From the NCBI RefSeq assembly GCF_000152265.2, contig NC_021592.1, forward strand, positions 310,001 through 374,000: a stretch of 64,000 nucleotides of DNA, written 5' to 3'. The DNA is from Ferroplasma acidarmanus Fer1. Lineage in GTDB: Archaea > Thermoplasmatota > Thermoplasmata > Thermoplasmatales > Thermoplasmataceae. Each line of letters starts with the position of its first letter. Position 1 is the stretch's first letter. Of the stretch, positions 43,800 to 49,351 are shown piece by piece. Below the pieces are notes generated by a model. That model searched no databases and had not been told where the DNA came from. It was given only the letters and a program-made list of their open reading frames with translations. A program made the position numbers and the translations under genes.

Positions 43800-44963
43800 A
43801 TGAAAGATGTGTATATTGTTTCAGCAAAACGTACACCTATAGGGAAATTTGGAAAATCCCTGGCAAAAATAAAGGCCACTGAACTCGGTGCGGCTGCTAT
43901 TAAAGGTGTAATTCAGGATTCAGGCATAGACAAAGACCTTATTGAGGAGGTTATAATGGGAAACGTTATACAGGCTAATGTCGGGCAAAATCCGGCAGGC
44001 CAGGCAGCGTTTTCTGCCGGGCTCAAACCGGAAGTAACAAAAAATACAGTAAACGTTGTATGCGCCTCCGGGATGCTCGCAACAGAGAATGCTGCAAGGG
44101 AAATTATGCTGGAAGAGCATGATATTATTGTTTCAGGAGGGTTTGAAAATATGAGCAACTCCCCATTAATAATGCCTTCTGAATTCAGATGGGGGCCCAA
44201 ACAGCTTTTATATAAGAATCTCAAAATAGAAGATTCAATGCTTGTTGATGGTCTTGTTGATGCCATGTACGGCGAACATATGGGTGTATCCGCAGAGCGT
44301 TCGGCAAAAAAATACGGAATAACAAGAGACCAGACAGATGGATTTTCAGTAGAAAGCCAGAACAGGGCTATCAGGGCCACAGAATCCGGGGAGTTTGCCA
44401 GGGAAATTGTTAAACTGGACAACCTTCAGAAAGACGAGGGCATGAGGAAAACATCAATGGAAGACCTTGCGAAACTAAACCCTGCCTTTGACAGGAATGG
44501 GATACTCACTGCAGGAAGTTCTTCACAGTTGTCTGATGGAGCTTCGGCTCTTATTCTTGCCTCGGAAAAGGCTTTGAATGAATACGGATTAAAACCAATA
44601 GCAAAAATCACAGGATTCAGCTCAGCTTCACTTGATACAAGGGATTTTGTAGAAGCTCCAATACCTGCAACCAGAAAGTTGCTTGAAAAACAGCACAAAA
44701 ACATCGATTATTACGATCTTGTGGAACATAATGAGGCTTTTTCAGTAGCATCCATTATTGTAAGGGACCAGCTGGGAGTTGCCCAGGAGAGGTTTAATGT
44801 TAACGGCGGCGCCATTGCTATAGGTCATCCACTCGGAAACAGCGGTTCGAGAATAATTGTGACATTGATCAATGCATTACAGAGCAGGCATATGAAAACA
44901 GGGCTTGCAACAATTTGCCATGGCGGTGGAGGAGGACATACTCTTACACTCGAACTGATGTAG
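43800..44963 (+). CDS. Acetyl-CoA C-acetyltransferase (thiolase)
   Basis: A 387-residue thiolase. Catalytic residues are nucleophilic Cys88 in VVCASGM, His in the HNEAF motif, His in GHPLGNSGSR and Cys in TICHGGGGGH. The full set and the HNEAF box match biosynthetic or degradative acetyl-CoA acetyltransferases, as opposed to the SCP2-type archaeal proteins that lack them. It could feed acetoacetyl-CoA to mevalonate synthesis or act in acyl degradation. It is one of two thiolase genes in this stretch. Confidence 0.92.
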   Translation: MKDVYIVSAKRTPIGKFGKSLAKIKATELGAAAIKGVIQDSGIDKDLIEEVIMGNVIQANVGQNPAGQAAFSAGLKPEVTKNTVNVVCASGMLATENAAREIMLEEHDIIVSGGFENMSNSPLIMPSEFRWGPKQLLYKNLKIEDSMLVDGLVDAMYGEHMGVSAERSAKKYGITRDQTDGFSVESQNRAIRATESGEFAREIVKLDNLQKDEGMRKTSMEDLAKLNPAFDRNGILTAGSSSQLSDGASALILASEKALNEYGLKPIAKITGFSSASLDTRDFVEAPIPATRKLLEKQHKNIDYYDLVEHNEAFSVASIIVRDQLGVAQERFNVNGGAIAIGHPLGNSGSRIIVTLINALQSRHMKTGLATICHGGGGGHTLTLELM

Positions 44964-45062: not shown

Positions 45063-45485
45063 TCATTTATTCTGGTCAATAACAGATTTTATTGCATTAA
45101 TTATAATATAAAAGTCATCCAGATTAGTTTTGATAAAATCATATGCCATGCGGTCGTCTATTTTACTATATCTATGAACCACAATATTTCTAAAACCCTT
45201 TAAATCCCTCATTCTAATAGCTATATCCTCTGAAATAATATTTTTTGCCTTTAAATTATTTATTAGGTCAGAGTCGTCGGAGGGTATGCCTAGCTTAAAG
45301 TCAGAATTAAACATATAAAATATATCTATAAGATTTTCAATAGAGTATTCGATGCGTTTATAAATTCCATCTTTTATTATACCCAGCTCGTTAAACTTAT
45401 CAAAAGTATCGGGCATATTTTCAGTAACTAAATCGAGGCTTTGCTCTATTTCATTTATTTTATTTTTAACTATATCCTTTCTCAT
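45063..45485 (-). CDS. hepT: HepT-like toxin (HEPN ribonuclease, DUF86)
   Basis: A 140-residue HEPN-domain protein with the catalytic R-x4-H-x-Y motif at Arg99, His104 and Tyr106 (FRNIVVHRY), typical of HepT. HepT toxins cut RNA; their partner MntA adds AMP units to the Tyr of this motif to silence them. The gene follows mntA with a four-base overlap, the normal order and coupling. It interrupts the interval between two thiolase genes and is AT-rich, suggesting acquisition. Confidence 0.9.
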   Translation of the reverse strand: MRKDIVKNKINEIEQSLDLVTENMPDTFDKFNELGIIKDGIYKRIEYSIENLIDIFYMFNSDFKLGIPSDDSDLINNLKAKNIISEDIAIRMRDLKGFRNIVVHRYSKIDDRMAYDFIKTNLDDFYIIINAIKSVIDQNK

Positions 45486-45868
45486 ATTATTTTCTCCAGT
45501 CCGATTGCGTCGTAATAACCTCTTCTAAAATCTTCAAATTCCTCAATTGTATTTCTTGCTATCTCGTAAATAGATTTATCTTTCATATACAATAATTTGC
45601 CATTCAATACGTCCTTTCTGATATACAAAGGCAAATCCTGAAAAATCTGCACATCAAATATATCATTTAAACTGGACAACATACTTAGCCTGAATTTCTG
45701 CCTTTCTTCAAGGGTGCCATTATAATATATGCATAAATCAATATCGGACCCGTTATGGAACGTATTATTTGAATATGACCCATAATTCATTATAAACACA
45801 ACTTTATTATTTCCATAAAATAATATTTGTTTGACTGCGTCTGATATCATTTTATCAAAATTATACAC
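45482..45868 (-). CDS. mntA: MntA-like antitoxin (minimal nucleotidyltransferase)
   Basis: A 128-residue minimal nucleotidyltransferase. The GS-x10-DxD signature is complete: Gly30-Ser31 and Asp42-Ile-Asp44 (NYGSYSNNTF then HNGSDIDL). In the HepT-MntA system it poly-AMPylates the HepT Tyr and neutralises it. The first codon is GTG at 45868; the ATG at 45850 (MISDAV) is an equally possible start. It is first in the pair and its TGA overlaps the hepT ATG. Confidence 0.9.
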   Translation of the reverse strand: MYNFDKMISDAVKQILFYGNNKVVFIMNYGSYSNNTFHNGSDIDLCIYYNGTLEERQKFRLSMLSSLNDIFDVQIFQDLPLYIRKDVLNGKLLYMKDKSIYEIARNTIEEFEDFRRGYYDAIGLEKII

Positions 45869-46142
45869 ATAACAGTATAAATTTATAATTAAAAGGTTTT
45901 TCCATTTTGCATCCCAAAAGTTCCCTCAACGGTTGCATTTTACTTTCTGCTAATATTTTTCAGCTGAAAGTTCTTAATATAGTTGTATAGAAATGTATCA
46001 ATATATACTGAAAGCCAAAAACAATCCTGTACAAACTTAATAACAATATTTCTACAAAGGAATATTTATTAAAATGTTCCTCATATGAGTACTGTGTTTG
46101 AACCATGCACCGTTGCAAATTTCAAACTAAATAGTGATTAAA

Positions 46143-47324
46143 ATGAAAGATGTTTATATAGCATATTATAAAAGAACTCCGTTCTCCAGAGCAAAGCCCG
46201 ATAATCCATCAAAAGATGTATACAACGGGGTATCCATGGATGTCCTGCTTTCAAAGCTTATAAAAGATTCCCTGAGCACAGGAATAAATCCTGAAGACAT
46301 AGGCGATGTAATTACAGGATGCGCTATTCAGGCAGGTGAAAACTGGACATATGGAGGCAGGCACCAGACACTTCTTTCTGAATTGCCGGTTAGTGTACCA
46401 TCAATGGCAATTGACAGGGCCTGCTCATCTTCGCTAAATGCCACTGCAATAGGTGCAATGGAAATTCAGACAGGGAACTCTGACGTAGTCCTTGCCGGAG
46501 GAATGGAACACATGACACATGTGCCATTATATAATGATCCGTATGTAAAATATAATACGGAATTAATGGAAAAGCCGGAATACAGAAAATATGATATGGA
46601 TGTTACATACCATGTTGGATTAACAGCAGAGAAACTTGCTGCCATTAATAATATTTCCAGGGAAGAAATGGATAAATTTTCATTTGAATCCCAGAAACTC
46701 ACTGCACATGCAATAGAAGAAGGGTTCTATAATAATGAAATTCTTCCGGTTAAAGTAACGCATGATGGAAGTGCTAAAACAATCAATGCCGACCAGACCC
46801 CAAGGCCAGAGAGTACCCTGGAACAGATGAGCCAGTTAAAACCAGCATTTATAGAAAACGGAAGAGTGACGGCCGGGAATTCGCCGCCGCTGAGTTCCGG
46901 CGCTTCACTTCTCATGCTTATGTCTGGCGAAAAAATTAAAGAATATGGATTAAAGCCACTTGCAAGAGTAATAGACTATGCTGCTGCCGGAGTAGACCCG
47001 ACCATAATGGGGCATGGGCCAGTACCTGCAACTAACAAACTGCTAAAGAAAAATAAACTTTCACCGGATAACATAGATTACTGGGAAATTAACGAGGCAT
47101 TTGCAGTTGTTGCATTGAATGCTATCAAGCACCTTAATTTAGACAGAAACCGGGTAAATATACATGGAGGGTCTATAGCTATCGGGCATCCACTAGGTGC
47201 AACCGGTGCAAGAATAGCCGGAACACTTGCAAGGACACTTCAGGAAAAGAAAGGCAATCTTGGAGTTGCAACGTTATGTGTAGGTGGCGGACAGGGATAC
47301 TCACTCTTAATAGAAAAAGTTTAA
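46143..47324 (+). CDS. Thiolase (acetyl-CoA acetyltransferase family)
   Basis: A 393-residue thiolase, divergent from the one at 43.8 kb. It has nucleophilic Cys in RACSSSLNA, the NEAF box in EINEAFAVVALNA, GHPLGATGARIAGT, and TLCVGGGQGYS. WEINEAF replaces the HNEAF of the first copy, so the ENEAF/HNEAF His is changed here. I start it at the ATG at 46143; a GTG three codons upstream is less likely. It probably differs in substrate chain length or direction from its neighbour. Confidence 0.92.
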   Translation: MKDVYIAYYKRTPFSRAKPDNPSKDVYNGVSMDVLLSKLIKDSLSTGINPEDIGDVITGCAIQAGENWTYGGRHQTLLSELPVSVPSMAIDRACSSSLNATAIGAMEIQTGNSDVVLAGGMEHMTHVPLYNDPYVKYNTELMEKPEYRKYDMDVTYHVGLTAEKLAAINNISREEMDKFSFESQKLTAHAIEEGFYNNEILPVKVTHDGSAKTINADQTPRPESTLEQMSQLKPAFIENGRVTAGNSPPLSSGASLLMLMSGEKIKEYGLKPLARVIDYAAAGVDPTIMGHGPVPATNKLLKKNKLSPDNIDYWEINEAFAVVALNAIKHLNLDRNRVNIHGGSIAIGHPLGATGARIAGTLARTLQEKKGNLGVATLCVGGGQGYSLLIEKV

Positions 47325-47373: not shown

Positions 47374-47393
47374 ATATATATATATATATATAT
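47374..47393 (+). repeat. (AT)10 dinucleotide run at the TATA position
   Basis: Ten perfect AT repeats are centred 26 bases upstream of the ATG at 47409, where an archaeal TATA box belongs in a leaderless promoter. Such a run can change length by slippage, which could alter promoter strength. Confidence 0.7.
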
Positions 47394-47408
47394 GAGTTAT
47401 ATTTAATT

Positions 47409-47759
47409 ATGAATAAATATAGAGATACAGGTCTTAATTATAGAATGTTGGCTATTGGGATTTCTATTGCTGCATTTGCTTCTATAGCAGTAATAGGAAT
47501 GAGTGGTATAACGATGTATGGTAATAGTGCTATACTGGCATTGTATTTTACTGGGCACATATCTGAAAGTTCTGCTGCACTTTCTTTAACTGCATTGGGT
47601 TTTCCGGGAGGTTTTGCTATGACTTATCTATTAGGTACTGCTGGATATGAAGCGTTTCTTGCAGGTGGTACTATAGTCTTTATTCGATATACAGTTCTTA
47701 GTGTACTGGGCCCATGGGGCTATATGATATTATTGGCAATATTTGGAGCGGCAGCGTGA
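47409..47759 (+). CDS. Hydrophobic secreted-peptide precursor, circular-bacteriocin-like
   Basis: A 116-residue precursor with no Cys. The first 12 residues are charged (MNKYRDTGLNYR); residues 13-35 are a hydrophobic leader (MLAIGISIAAFASIAVIGMS); the rest is rich in Ala, Gly, Ile, Leu and Phe, with very few charges (Glu53, Glu81, Arg93). This is the plan of circular-bacteriocin precursors such as AS-48, where a leader is removed and a 58-70 residue core joined head to tail. Residues 51-116 would give a 66-residue core, but the cut site is inferred only. The next gene, 8 bases on, is a SpoIIM-signal-peptidase fusion. It could instead be an ordinary small membrane protein. Confidence 0.65.
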   Translation: MNKYRDTGLNYRMLAIGISIAAFASIAVIGMSGITMYGNSAILALYFTGHISESSAALSLTALGFPGGFAMTYLLGTAGYEAFLAGGTIVFIRYTVLSVLGPWGYMILLAIFGAAA

Positions 47760-47767
47760 GATAGAAT

Positions 47768-49351
47768 ATGCCTAACAAATCGTACAATATATATTCTTAT
47801 CTTTTATTTTATTTTCTAGTGTTTTATCTAGCTATATTATTCGTGGATTTTTTCCATAATTCAATATTTATATTCTCGTCTACATTATCACGATCAATTT
47901 TCATCGCTATCGTATTATATCTATGTTTTATCTCTATGAATTTTTATAAAACCGGTCACTTTAAACTTTATTACGGTTTATTAGAGTTATTTCCTTTAAT
48001 GCCGATAATACTTTATTTTAAGGGGAAGTTTTTTTCTAATAATAAAGACAATGTAGGATTCTATTATGGATTCTCAATATTCTTATTTATTATATTTTTT
48101 TCAGTTATGTTCTTCACATCACTTATATTTCTTATTTATAAACCTCTATATCTTAGTTTAACTGAAACCAGCAACAATTATTTGATATTTTTAAAACCGG
48201 TCGGAAATATAAAAACGGTCTCATTCTTTATAATTATACACAACATGGCTTTCCTCTCACTAATATTTTTAGGTTCTCCCTTTCTATTTCTTCCAACTTT
48301 TGCAAATCTTTATTTTATGTCTATAATTACTATACCAGTAATAGTAGGTTCTATGCTTGATGGTTATTTTAACTATGTCCTACCAAATGGGATACTTGAA
48401 ATCTCAGGAACTGTAATAGGAAGTGCTGCTTCGTTTATTTTGTTTATGTTTATAGTAGAGAGTGTAAAACTCAAGGATAATTTTACTGGTGCTAGAATGT
48501 ATATGAAATTTATTGCATCTGGATTACTAATGTCGATTTTTAGCTTCATTTTTGCCTGGCCTATAGAAACAAAACTGATTTATATGAAACATGTCTCTAT
48601 AGAGTGGCTAAAGGTCGCTTATTTTATTGATTTTTACATGCTTGCTGTAGATGCTATAATCATCTTTAAATTGCTAAAAAATCATTTTATATCGGCATTA
48701 GAATATTTCTCACTATATTTTTTTATTTCTTTATTTTTATTTGGATTCATCGTATTTGGATTTTTCACGATAGATATTATCAGTTTAGGTAGTATTTATA
48801 TGATAGTTTATGGTGCATTTTCAATATATTTTTTGCTTAATTCAATTTTCACTAGTTTTCACCGTAAATTGAACTGGTTTAAAATTAATGGAAATGAATT
48901 TGCACTAATAGGAGTTCGCGGCATAAGTATGAATCCAGAATTTAAGGCAGGAGATTCGGTTATAATAAAGAGAATTAAAACATGGCATGAACTAAAAGTT
49001 GGTGATATTATAACTTACAAATCTTCAAATATTAACTCGCCTTTAAATGCTTCAGGGTATATAACGCATAGAATTCATGAGATTTCGGGCGATATAATAA
49101 GGACTAAAGGAGATAATAACAAAGTAGTAGATTACATGAAAATAAGATTAGATGATATAGTTGGCATCGCAGTGGCTAAAGTTGTTTACATTAACAGGAG
49201 AGCTACCGGCATAGAAATGATAGGCGATAATAGCAATAAAGAAGACCTGCCATTTTTTACTCCATTTAATATCAGGGCACGGAAAAGTAGTCTATATTTC
49301 AACATATACTTCATTGCTATATCGTTAATCCTAATTATGGTAATATTATAG
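47768..49351 (+). CDS. SpoIIM/DUF95 membrane domain fused to Sec11-type signal peptidase
   Basis: A 527-residue protein in two parts. Residues 1-365 form about ten membrane helices. Within them SpoIIM/DUF95 marks are visible: IIIHNM (155-160), VLPNGILEIS (204-213) and FAWPIET (262-268), aligning with HN, LPHSWLELP and AGAIET in the free-standing homologue at 13863. Residues 378-485 are an ER/archaeal-type signal peptidase with Ser387 (RGISMNP), His434 (ITHRIHE) and Asp449 (KGDNN), all catalytic residues present, then a final membrane helix (509-527). DUF95 proteins accompany circular-bacteriocin precursors. I infer that this protein cleaves and matures or exports the peptide encoded just upstream. 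The gene is AT-rich. Confidence 0.85.
   Translation: MPNKSYNIYSYLLFYFLVFYLAILFVDFFHNSIFIFSSTLSRSIFIAIVLYLCFISMNFYKTGHFKLYYGLLELFPLMPIILYFKGKFFSNNKDNVGFYYGFSIFLFIIFFSVMFFTSLIFLIYKPLYLSLTETSNNYLIFLKPVGNIKTVSFFIIIHNMAFLSLIFLGSPFLFLPTFANLYFMSIITIPVIVGSMLDGYFNYVLPNGILEISGTVIGSAASFILFMFIVESVKLKDNFTGARMYMKFIASGLLMSIFSFIFAWPIETKLIYMKHVSIEWLKVAYFIDFYMLAVDAIIIFKLLKNHFISALEYFSLYFFISLFLFGFIVFGFFTIDIISLGSIYMIVYGAFSIYFLLNSIFTSFHRKLNWFKINGNEFALIGVRGISMNPEFKAGDSVIIKRIKTWHELKVGDIITYKSSNINSPLNASGYITHRIHEISGDIIRTKGDNNKVVDYMKIRLDDIVGIAVAKVVYINRRATGIEMIGDNSNKEDLPFFTPFNIRARKSSLYFNIYFIAISLILIMVIL

Follow-up and report, generated by a model that had tools for sequence, protein, structure and literature searches.

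A hydrophobic peptide gene paired with a SpoIIM–signal peptidase fusion in Ferroplasma acidarmanus Fer1: a candidate peptide-maturation cassette of Thermoplasmatales

Two adjacent genes of Ferroplasma acidarmanus Fer1, located in the analysed window (64,000 nucleotides; contig NC_021592.1, positions 310,001 to 374,000, forward strand), encode (i) a small hydrophobic precursor peptide and (ii) a membrane protein in which a SpoIIM/DUF95-like part is fused to an S26 signal peptidase. With a rough probability of 0.55, the pair is regarded as a two-gene cassette for peptide maturation and export, resembling a minimal circular-bacteriocin cluster. According to the best reading of the sequences, the fused S26 domain would cleave off the leader, and the SpoIIM part would handle membrane insertion or export. 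This reading is supported by the pairing of the two genes at 8 of 11 loci, their correlated divergence, the SpoIIM homology, the patchy distribution, a second design involving M48 metalloproteases and the Ala-ending core of the peptide.

47409..47759, forward strand: hydrophobic precursor peptide, 116 residues, Cys-free; open reading frame with homologues directly upstream of fusion homologues at 8 loci
47768..49351, forward strand: polytopic membrane protein, 527 residues; RDD/SpoIIM(DUF95)-like part and S26 signal peptidase, with a C-terminal hydrophobic helix

The two open reading frames are separated by 8 nt and confirm an earlier note on this DNA, made from the sequence alone, which had described a Cys-free hydrophobic peptide of 116 residues encoded 8 bases ahead of the fusion gene. 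Whole or partial fusions are present in 15 of 117 genomes from the order Thermoplasmatales, a count that excludes G010 and G012 (M48-linked SpoIIM proteins) as well as a weak, stop-ridden match in G052. Eleven loci combine an intact fusion with readable upstream DNA, and the search for small hydrophobic reading frames beside them, suggested in the earlier note, revealed a homologous peptide directly upstream at eight: the window's own (G000), two in G001, and those of G006, G220, G278, G039 and G409. The gaps between peptide and fusion genes range from -4 to 54 nt, and the gene order is kept across the homologous loci. Ratios of nonsynonymous to synonymous substitution rates (dN/dS) are 0.18-0.22 in peptide genes and 0.17-0.28 in fusion genes, with dS being high or saturated in some pairs. 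Pairwise distances of peptides and fusions are strongly correlated (Mantel r=0.93, p=2.5e-5, all 8! permutations). Conserved order, dN/dS values and correlated distance matrices together indicate that the two-gene unit is real and not due to chance.

Since jointly inherited genes correlate as well, the Mantel result proves linkage of the two genes and not contact of their products. Strong co-divergence would also fit a complex, i.e., a peptide serving as resident subunit or partner of the peptidase, with the pair acting as a signal peptidase dedicated to secreted proteins other than the peptide itself, in the manner of SipW, which serves TasA in Bacillus. This explanation, considered unlikely, could further account for a peptide that is conserved without a hypervariable core and for the lack of a transporter.

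No fusion was found beyond the order in a phylum-wide sample of 390 genomes, and no relatives were found on viral contigs. A scan of genome contigs yielded two true relatives, one of them in Acidiplasma aeolicum VT, and one match from Bacilli covering the S26 part only. Searching 400 genomes of the class with the peptide alone returned strong full-length matches solely beside fusions. Various loci display decay: the peptide upstream of the G025 fusion (1 of the 11 loci) is truncated and degraded, G255 retains a peptide fragment ahead of a fusion that is cut by the contig end, and G006 harbours an extra broken copy next to transposase-like genes. In G092, which belongs to the same species as the window, the flanking genes are kept, the peptide is gone, and the fusion lacks about 190 residues at its N-terminus. 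As a mobile unit of some acid-loving archaea, the cassette is patchily distributed, repeatedly lost and sometimes located next to transposases. Inspection of the translated flanking reading frames revealed no neighbouring gene other than the pair to be common to the loci, bearing out the two-gene system postulated before. Patchiness, frequent loss and the absence of a common cargo gene nearby argue against a signal peptidase specialised for other secreted proteins.

Assignment of the N-terminal part of the fusion to SpoIIM rests on the following domain.

48206..48592, forward strand: SpoIIM/DUF95-like domain, residues 147-275; signature N159...G169...LP205-206...E211...E267, profile-profile match

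The motifs from which the earlier note had recognised this domain are in place (HN158-159, LPNGILE205-211 and PIET265-268), and N159, L205-P206, E211 and E267 are invariant among 8 homologues. The Pfam model PF01944 (SpoIIM) did not match the fusion, and homology was obtained by profile-profile comparison instead: the N-terminal part of 11 fusions (alignment A8) matched 15 SpoIIM proteins (alignment A13) in hhalign with an expect value (E) of 1.6e-10 and a probability of 96.9%. The latter alignment comprises M48-linked and stand-alone SpoIIM proteins as well as the protein encoded beside AS-48 on plasmid pPD1, several members exceeding the Pfam SpoIIM cut-off. Comparison with six M48-linked SpoIIM proteins only yielded E=1.7e-8, a weaker test against a four-sequence alignment (the AS-48 protein together with stand-alone ones) E=0.0021, and the negative control with an unrelated polytopic family (M48, alignment A11) E=0.36. 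Fusion and SpoIIM proteins have the signature N...G...LP....E...E in common. Because the alignment with the M48-linked proteins runs on into their RDD-like part, the fusion probably has the architecture RDD-like + SpoIIM + S26.

The C-terminal half carries a complete catalytic site.

48824..49192, forward strand: archaeal-type S26 signal peptidase domain, residues 353-475; TIGR02228, E=5e-18, 65.4 bits (cut-off 51.85)
48926..48928, forward strand: Ser387, predicted nucleophile, GxSMxP box; invariant in 8 homologues
49067..49069, forward strand: His434, predicted catalytic base, HR box; invariant in 8 homologues
49112..49114, forward strand: Asp449, predicted third catalytic residue, KGDN box; invariant in 8 homologues

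The score above cut-off and the three invariant residues agree with the complete Sec11-type signal peptidase claimed earlier. Seven of the 8 members match the S26 family model at E<=0.001, and SEC11A and SEC11C were retrieved as sequence relatives from the PDB. The domain also matches the SipW model with 41.6 bits, i.e., below cut-off, which favours the specialised signal peptidase to some extent. A function as general signal peptidase of the group was rejected, because the fusion is absent from most relatives. Searching the genome of strain Fer1 with TIGR02228 and PF10502 returned the fusion as sole match, and two further genomes of the order yielded no PF10502 match. Apparently, these models miss the general signal peptidase of such archaea because its sequence has diverged too far. 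A further accessory polytopic membrane protein of about 400 residues with an S26-like C-terminal part (L141:1255-2454, reverse strand) has homologues in G001, G005, G006, G007 and others and was not found in the window's genome.

The peptide itself is divided into two putative parts.

47409..47528, forward strand: predicted leader, residues 1-40; charged N-terminus, hydrophobic helix 11-31 and small-residue site GNS|A; putative boundary
47529..47756, forward strand: predicted core, residues 41-116 (76 residues), with C-terminal Ala; from alignments and five-helix model

Helix 11-31 is supported by hydropathy and structure model. Small residues following it (Gly-Asn-Ser in the window) recur there in the homologues, ahead of the conserved part. 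Pairwise identity among the peptides amounts to 23% in the N-terminal and 38% in the C-terminal part, and the C-termini of all eight fall in one alignment column. The leader-like N-terminus noted before is thus reflected in a variable N-terminal and a more conserved C-terminal part, with the cut site itself being a prediction. Faster divergence of the N-terminal part is not what a resident subunit of the peptidase would suggest. The stretch 34-116 has a charge of -1 and is 76% hydrophobic; AlphaFold2 modelled it from eight sequences as five helices, with a predicted local distance difference test score (pLDDT) of 70 and a predicted template modelling score of 0.51.

Gly-Ala/Thr-x-Ala forms the C-terminus of five of the eight peptides (GAAA, GASA, GTAA, GAAA, GAIA), the other three ending in ITSL, VASL and VTAI. 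These ends bear on a possible alternative, a linear or circular peptide that is secreted for a structural or signalling role (pilin-like, or a biofilm component) rather than as an antimicrobial. Circular pilins of conjugation systems are in some cases closed by enzymes of the S26 family (TraF acting on TrbC), and a core of 73-76 residues, five ends loosely resembling a trimmed tail and S26 catalysis might be taken in this sense. The three deviating C-termini do not conform, TraF uses Ser-Lys in place of the Ser-His of the fusion, no conjugation or pilus genes were seen on inspection of the translated flanking reading frames, and SpoIIM is typical of circular-bacteriocin clusters. A structural or signalling peptide is therefore distinctly unlikely.

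For the favoured maturation/export cassette, the following sequence of events is conceivable. The hydrophobic precursor would insert into the membrane via its N-terminal leader helix and be received, held or moved there by the SpoIIM/DUF95 part. The S26 part would then remove the leader at the outer side of the membrane, with the cut probably falling behind the site near Gly38-Asn39-Ser40, and thereby release a helical C-terminal core of about 76 residues, which most likely would act on membranes of competing archaea. We infer the peptide to be the substrate, as well as its cut site, export and antimicrobial role, from the gene and protein sequences. Head-to-tail closure of the core is the weakest part of this proposal: the S26 cut would leave the core with a free N-terminus, and a new bond would require transpeptidation by the peptidase or another activity. 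The Gly-Ala/Thr-x-Ala ends would permit an exchange at Gly, an idea that the three other peptides do not fit.

A second design in the same order, not noticed in the earlier note, lends support to a dedicated leader peptidase. In the genome of strain Fer1, a precursor of 157 residues, an M48 metalloprotease (Pfam 69.7 bits for the zinc protease) and an RDD/SpoIIM protein are encoded in a row (C1:989092-991582, corresponding to L081:2093-4583). The profile of M48-linked SpoIIM proteins matches 24 of the 117 genomes of the order, often with several copies and pseudogenes, and many of these 24 carry the complete row of precursor, M48 protease and RDD/SpoIIM protein. In a subset of five M48-type precursors, identity amounts to 57% in the N-terminal leader part and to 22% in the core; locus L115 contains two precursors with a common leader and different cores, and most cores end in Tyr/Phe. 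These triads share with the cassette the hosts, a homologous SpoIIM part, a hydrophobic precursor and a protease within the unit, and differ by a separate M48 zinc enzyme, a longer precursor and cores mostly ending in Tyr/Phe. Homology between the window's core and the M48-type cores is not claimed, given that hhalign of the window's peptide family against the M48-type precursors was not significant; the pairwise score against the L137 precursor stands out among 112 pairs with an unadjusted p of ~2e-4. An M48-linked-type SpoIIM gene broken by two in-frame stops (L134, C1:872915-873775) in the genome of strain Fer1 reads as the remnant of a lost system.

M48 peptidases are also present in a few bacterial circular-bacteriocin clusters (PMC8659200). 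Based on this, on the triads and on their mostly Tyr/Phe-ending cores, SpoIIM-linked peptide systems of Thermoplasmatales are likely to bring their own leader peptidase, the fused S26 domain representing one form. Both the connection to SpoIIM and the precursor systems of M48 type speak against a signal peptidase specialised for other secreted proteins.

Several observations weigh against a circular-bacteriocin-like cassette. (i) Two of the 11 fusions (G034, G036) lack the peptide, a finding to which the earlier note had attached weight against its proposal. The G409 fusion, 87% identical to that of G034, has kept its peptide, for which reason absence beside the G034-type fusion is probably due to loss, the simpler reading. 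(ii) Among the flanking reading frames, neither an ABC transporter nor an immunity gene is conserved. (iii) No bacteriocin family model matches the window's peptide, nor did NCBIfam yield a bacteriocin match for five homologues; the peptide has no match at all in Pfam and NCBIfam. (iv) The core model has no significant match in the PDB (best E=5.5), the full-length model (pLDDT 59) has none, and a PDB sequence search with the peptide returned nothing significant; the earlier note had suggested comparing residues 36-116 with the saposin-like fold (4-5 helices) of circular bacteriocins, and the model of residues 34-116 has five helices. (v) AS-48's own SpoIIM protein, used as single sequence, is not significantly similar (E=0.45). 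(vi) The S26 domain accounts for leader removal and not for ring closure, and the cassette encodes no energy source for the latter. Thus, of the circular-bacteriocin-like locus postulated earlier, the SpoIIM-type domain stands and the predicted precursor layout would fit, whereas a family-model match, transporter and immunity gene are missing; the cassette is likened to a minimal cluster of this kind rather than counted as one.

The peptide is lost more readily than the fusion (G025, G034, G036, G092), which could point to an addiction pair of a self-directed membrane toxin and a neutralising fusion. A small hydrophobic protein beside a membrane protein and the patchy distribution would be in line with this. 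Most antitoxins need no complete conserved protease site, even though degradation of the peptide could neutralise it, and SpoIIM is linked to secreted peptides, rendering an addiction pair highly improbable as compared to peptide maturation.

Upstream of the gene pair, a conspicuous repeat is found.

47374..47393, forward strand: (AT)10 tract, -35 to -16 from the peptide start codon, where an archaeal TATA box is expected

TA-rich tracts at similar location precede most of the 8 peptide genes, and the (AT)10 tract may act as promoter element. Slippage in the tract could switch expression of the peptide gene. It represents the sole AT/TA run of at least 6 units in the window. Further upstream, a HepT-like RNase (PF01934, 85.6 bits) and its nucleotidyltransferase partner form a HepT/MntA toxin-antitoxin pair (45063-45868, reverse strand), flanked by two acetyl-CoA acetyltransferase-like (thiolase) genes identified by eye (43800-44963 and 46134-47324). 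In G092 (L055), the corresponding region contains a transposase, and the nucleotidyltransferase there is shortened.

SpoIIM naturally fused to a complete signal peptidase beside a single precursor provides a direct, testable candidate for a leader peptidase within two genes. Acidophilic archaea would, moreover, gain a further peptide family among their possible weapons. More far-reaching, and possible though doubtful, is a role of the SpoIIM-S26 fusion as dedicated leader peptidase, perhaps also ring-closer, of archaeal circular bacteriocins, with Thermoplasmatales employing two interchangeable designs of fused S26 and separate M48. If true, SpoIIM-dependent peptides, whose leader peptidase is missing so far, would thereby obtain a candidate for it. 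Archaeal antimicrobial peptides were reportedly surveyed by Makarova et al. (mBio 2019). In the literature covered, which did not include a survey of this kind and thus leaves prior listing of the peptides or of M48/S26 systems possible, no description covers SpoIIM together with signal peptidase, fusion and archaea, or links SpoIIM with Thermoplasmatales. For one relative, E-plasma, a published search with antiSMASH/BACTIBASE yielded no hits (PMC10354927).

Compared to known systems, the fusion shares family and Ser-His-Asp boxes with SipW and archaeal type I signal peptidases (S26, TIGR02228; SEC11). These are stand-alone proteins, whereas its S26 domain follows a membrane part of SpoIIM type and is associated with a single small peptide gene. 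The archaeal stand-alone SpoIIM family (arCOG01994, PMC5898192) has the same N...G...LP....E...E signature, yet without attached peptide or peptidase. Circular-bacteriocin clusters encode SpoIIM, with the leader peptidase being unidentified (PMC6131525, PMC8659200) and leader cleavage termed a longstanding question (PMC8659200). The cassette differs from these clusters by its archaeal host, the fusion of SpoIIM to S26, the lack of an ABC transporter, an immunity gene and a family-model match, and by a ring that is hypothetical. In common with them (subgroup ii, gassericin A and acidocin B; AS-48 type), it combines a SpoIIM/DUF95 protein with a hydrophobic precursor, composed of a predicted N-terminal leader and a more conserved core extending to the C-terminus. 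Most bacterial groups end in an aromatic residue and subgroup ii in Ala (PMC8659200); the former is comparable to the Tyr/Phe ends of most M48-type cores, and the window's predicted core, being neutral, hydrophobic and Ala-ending, resembles the latter.
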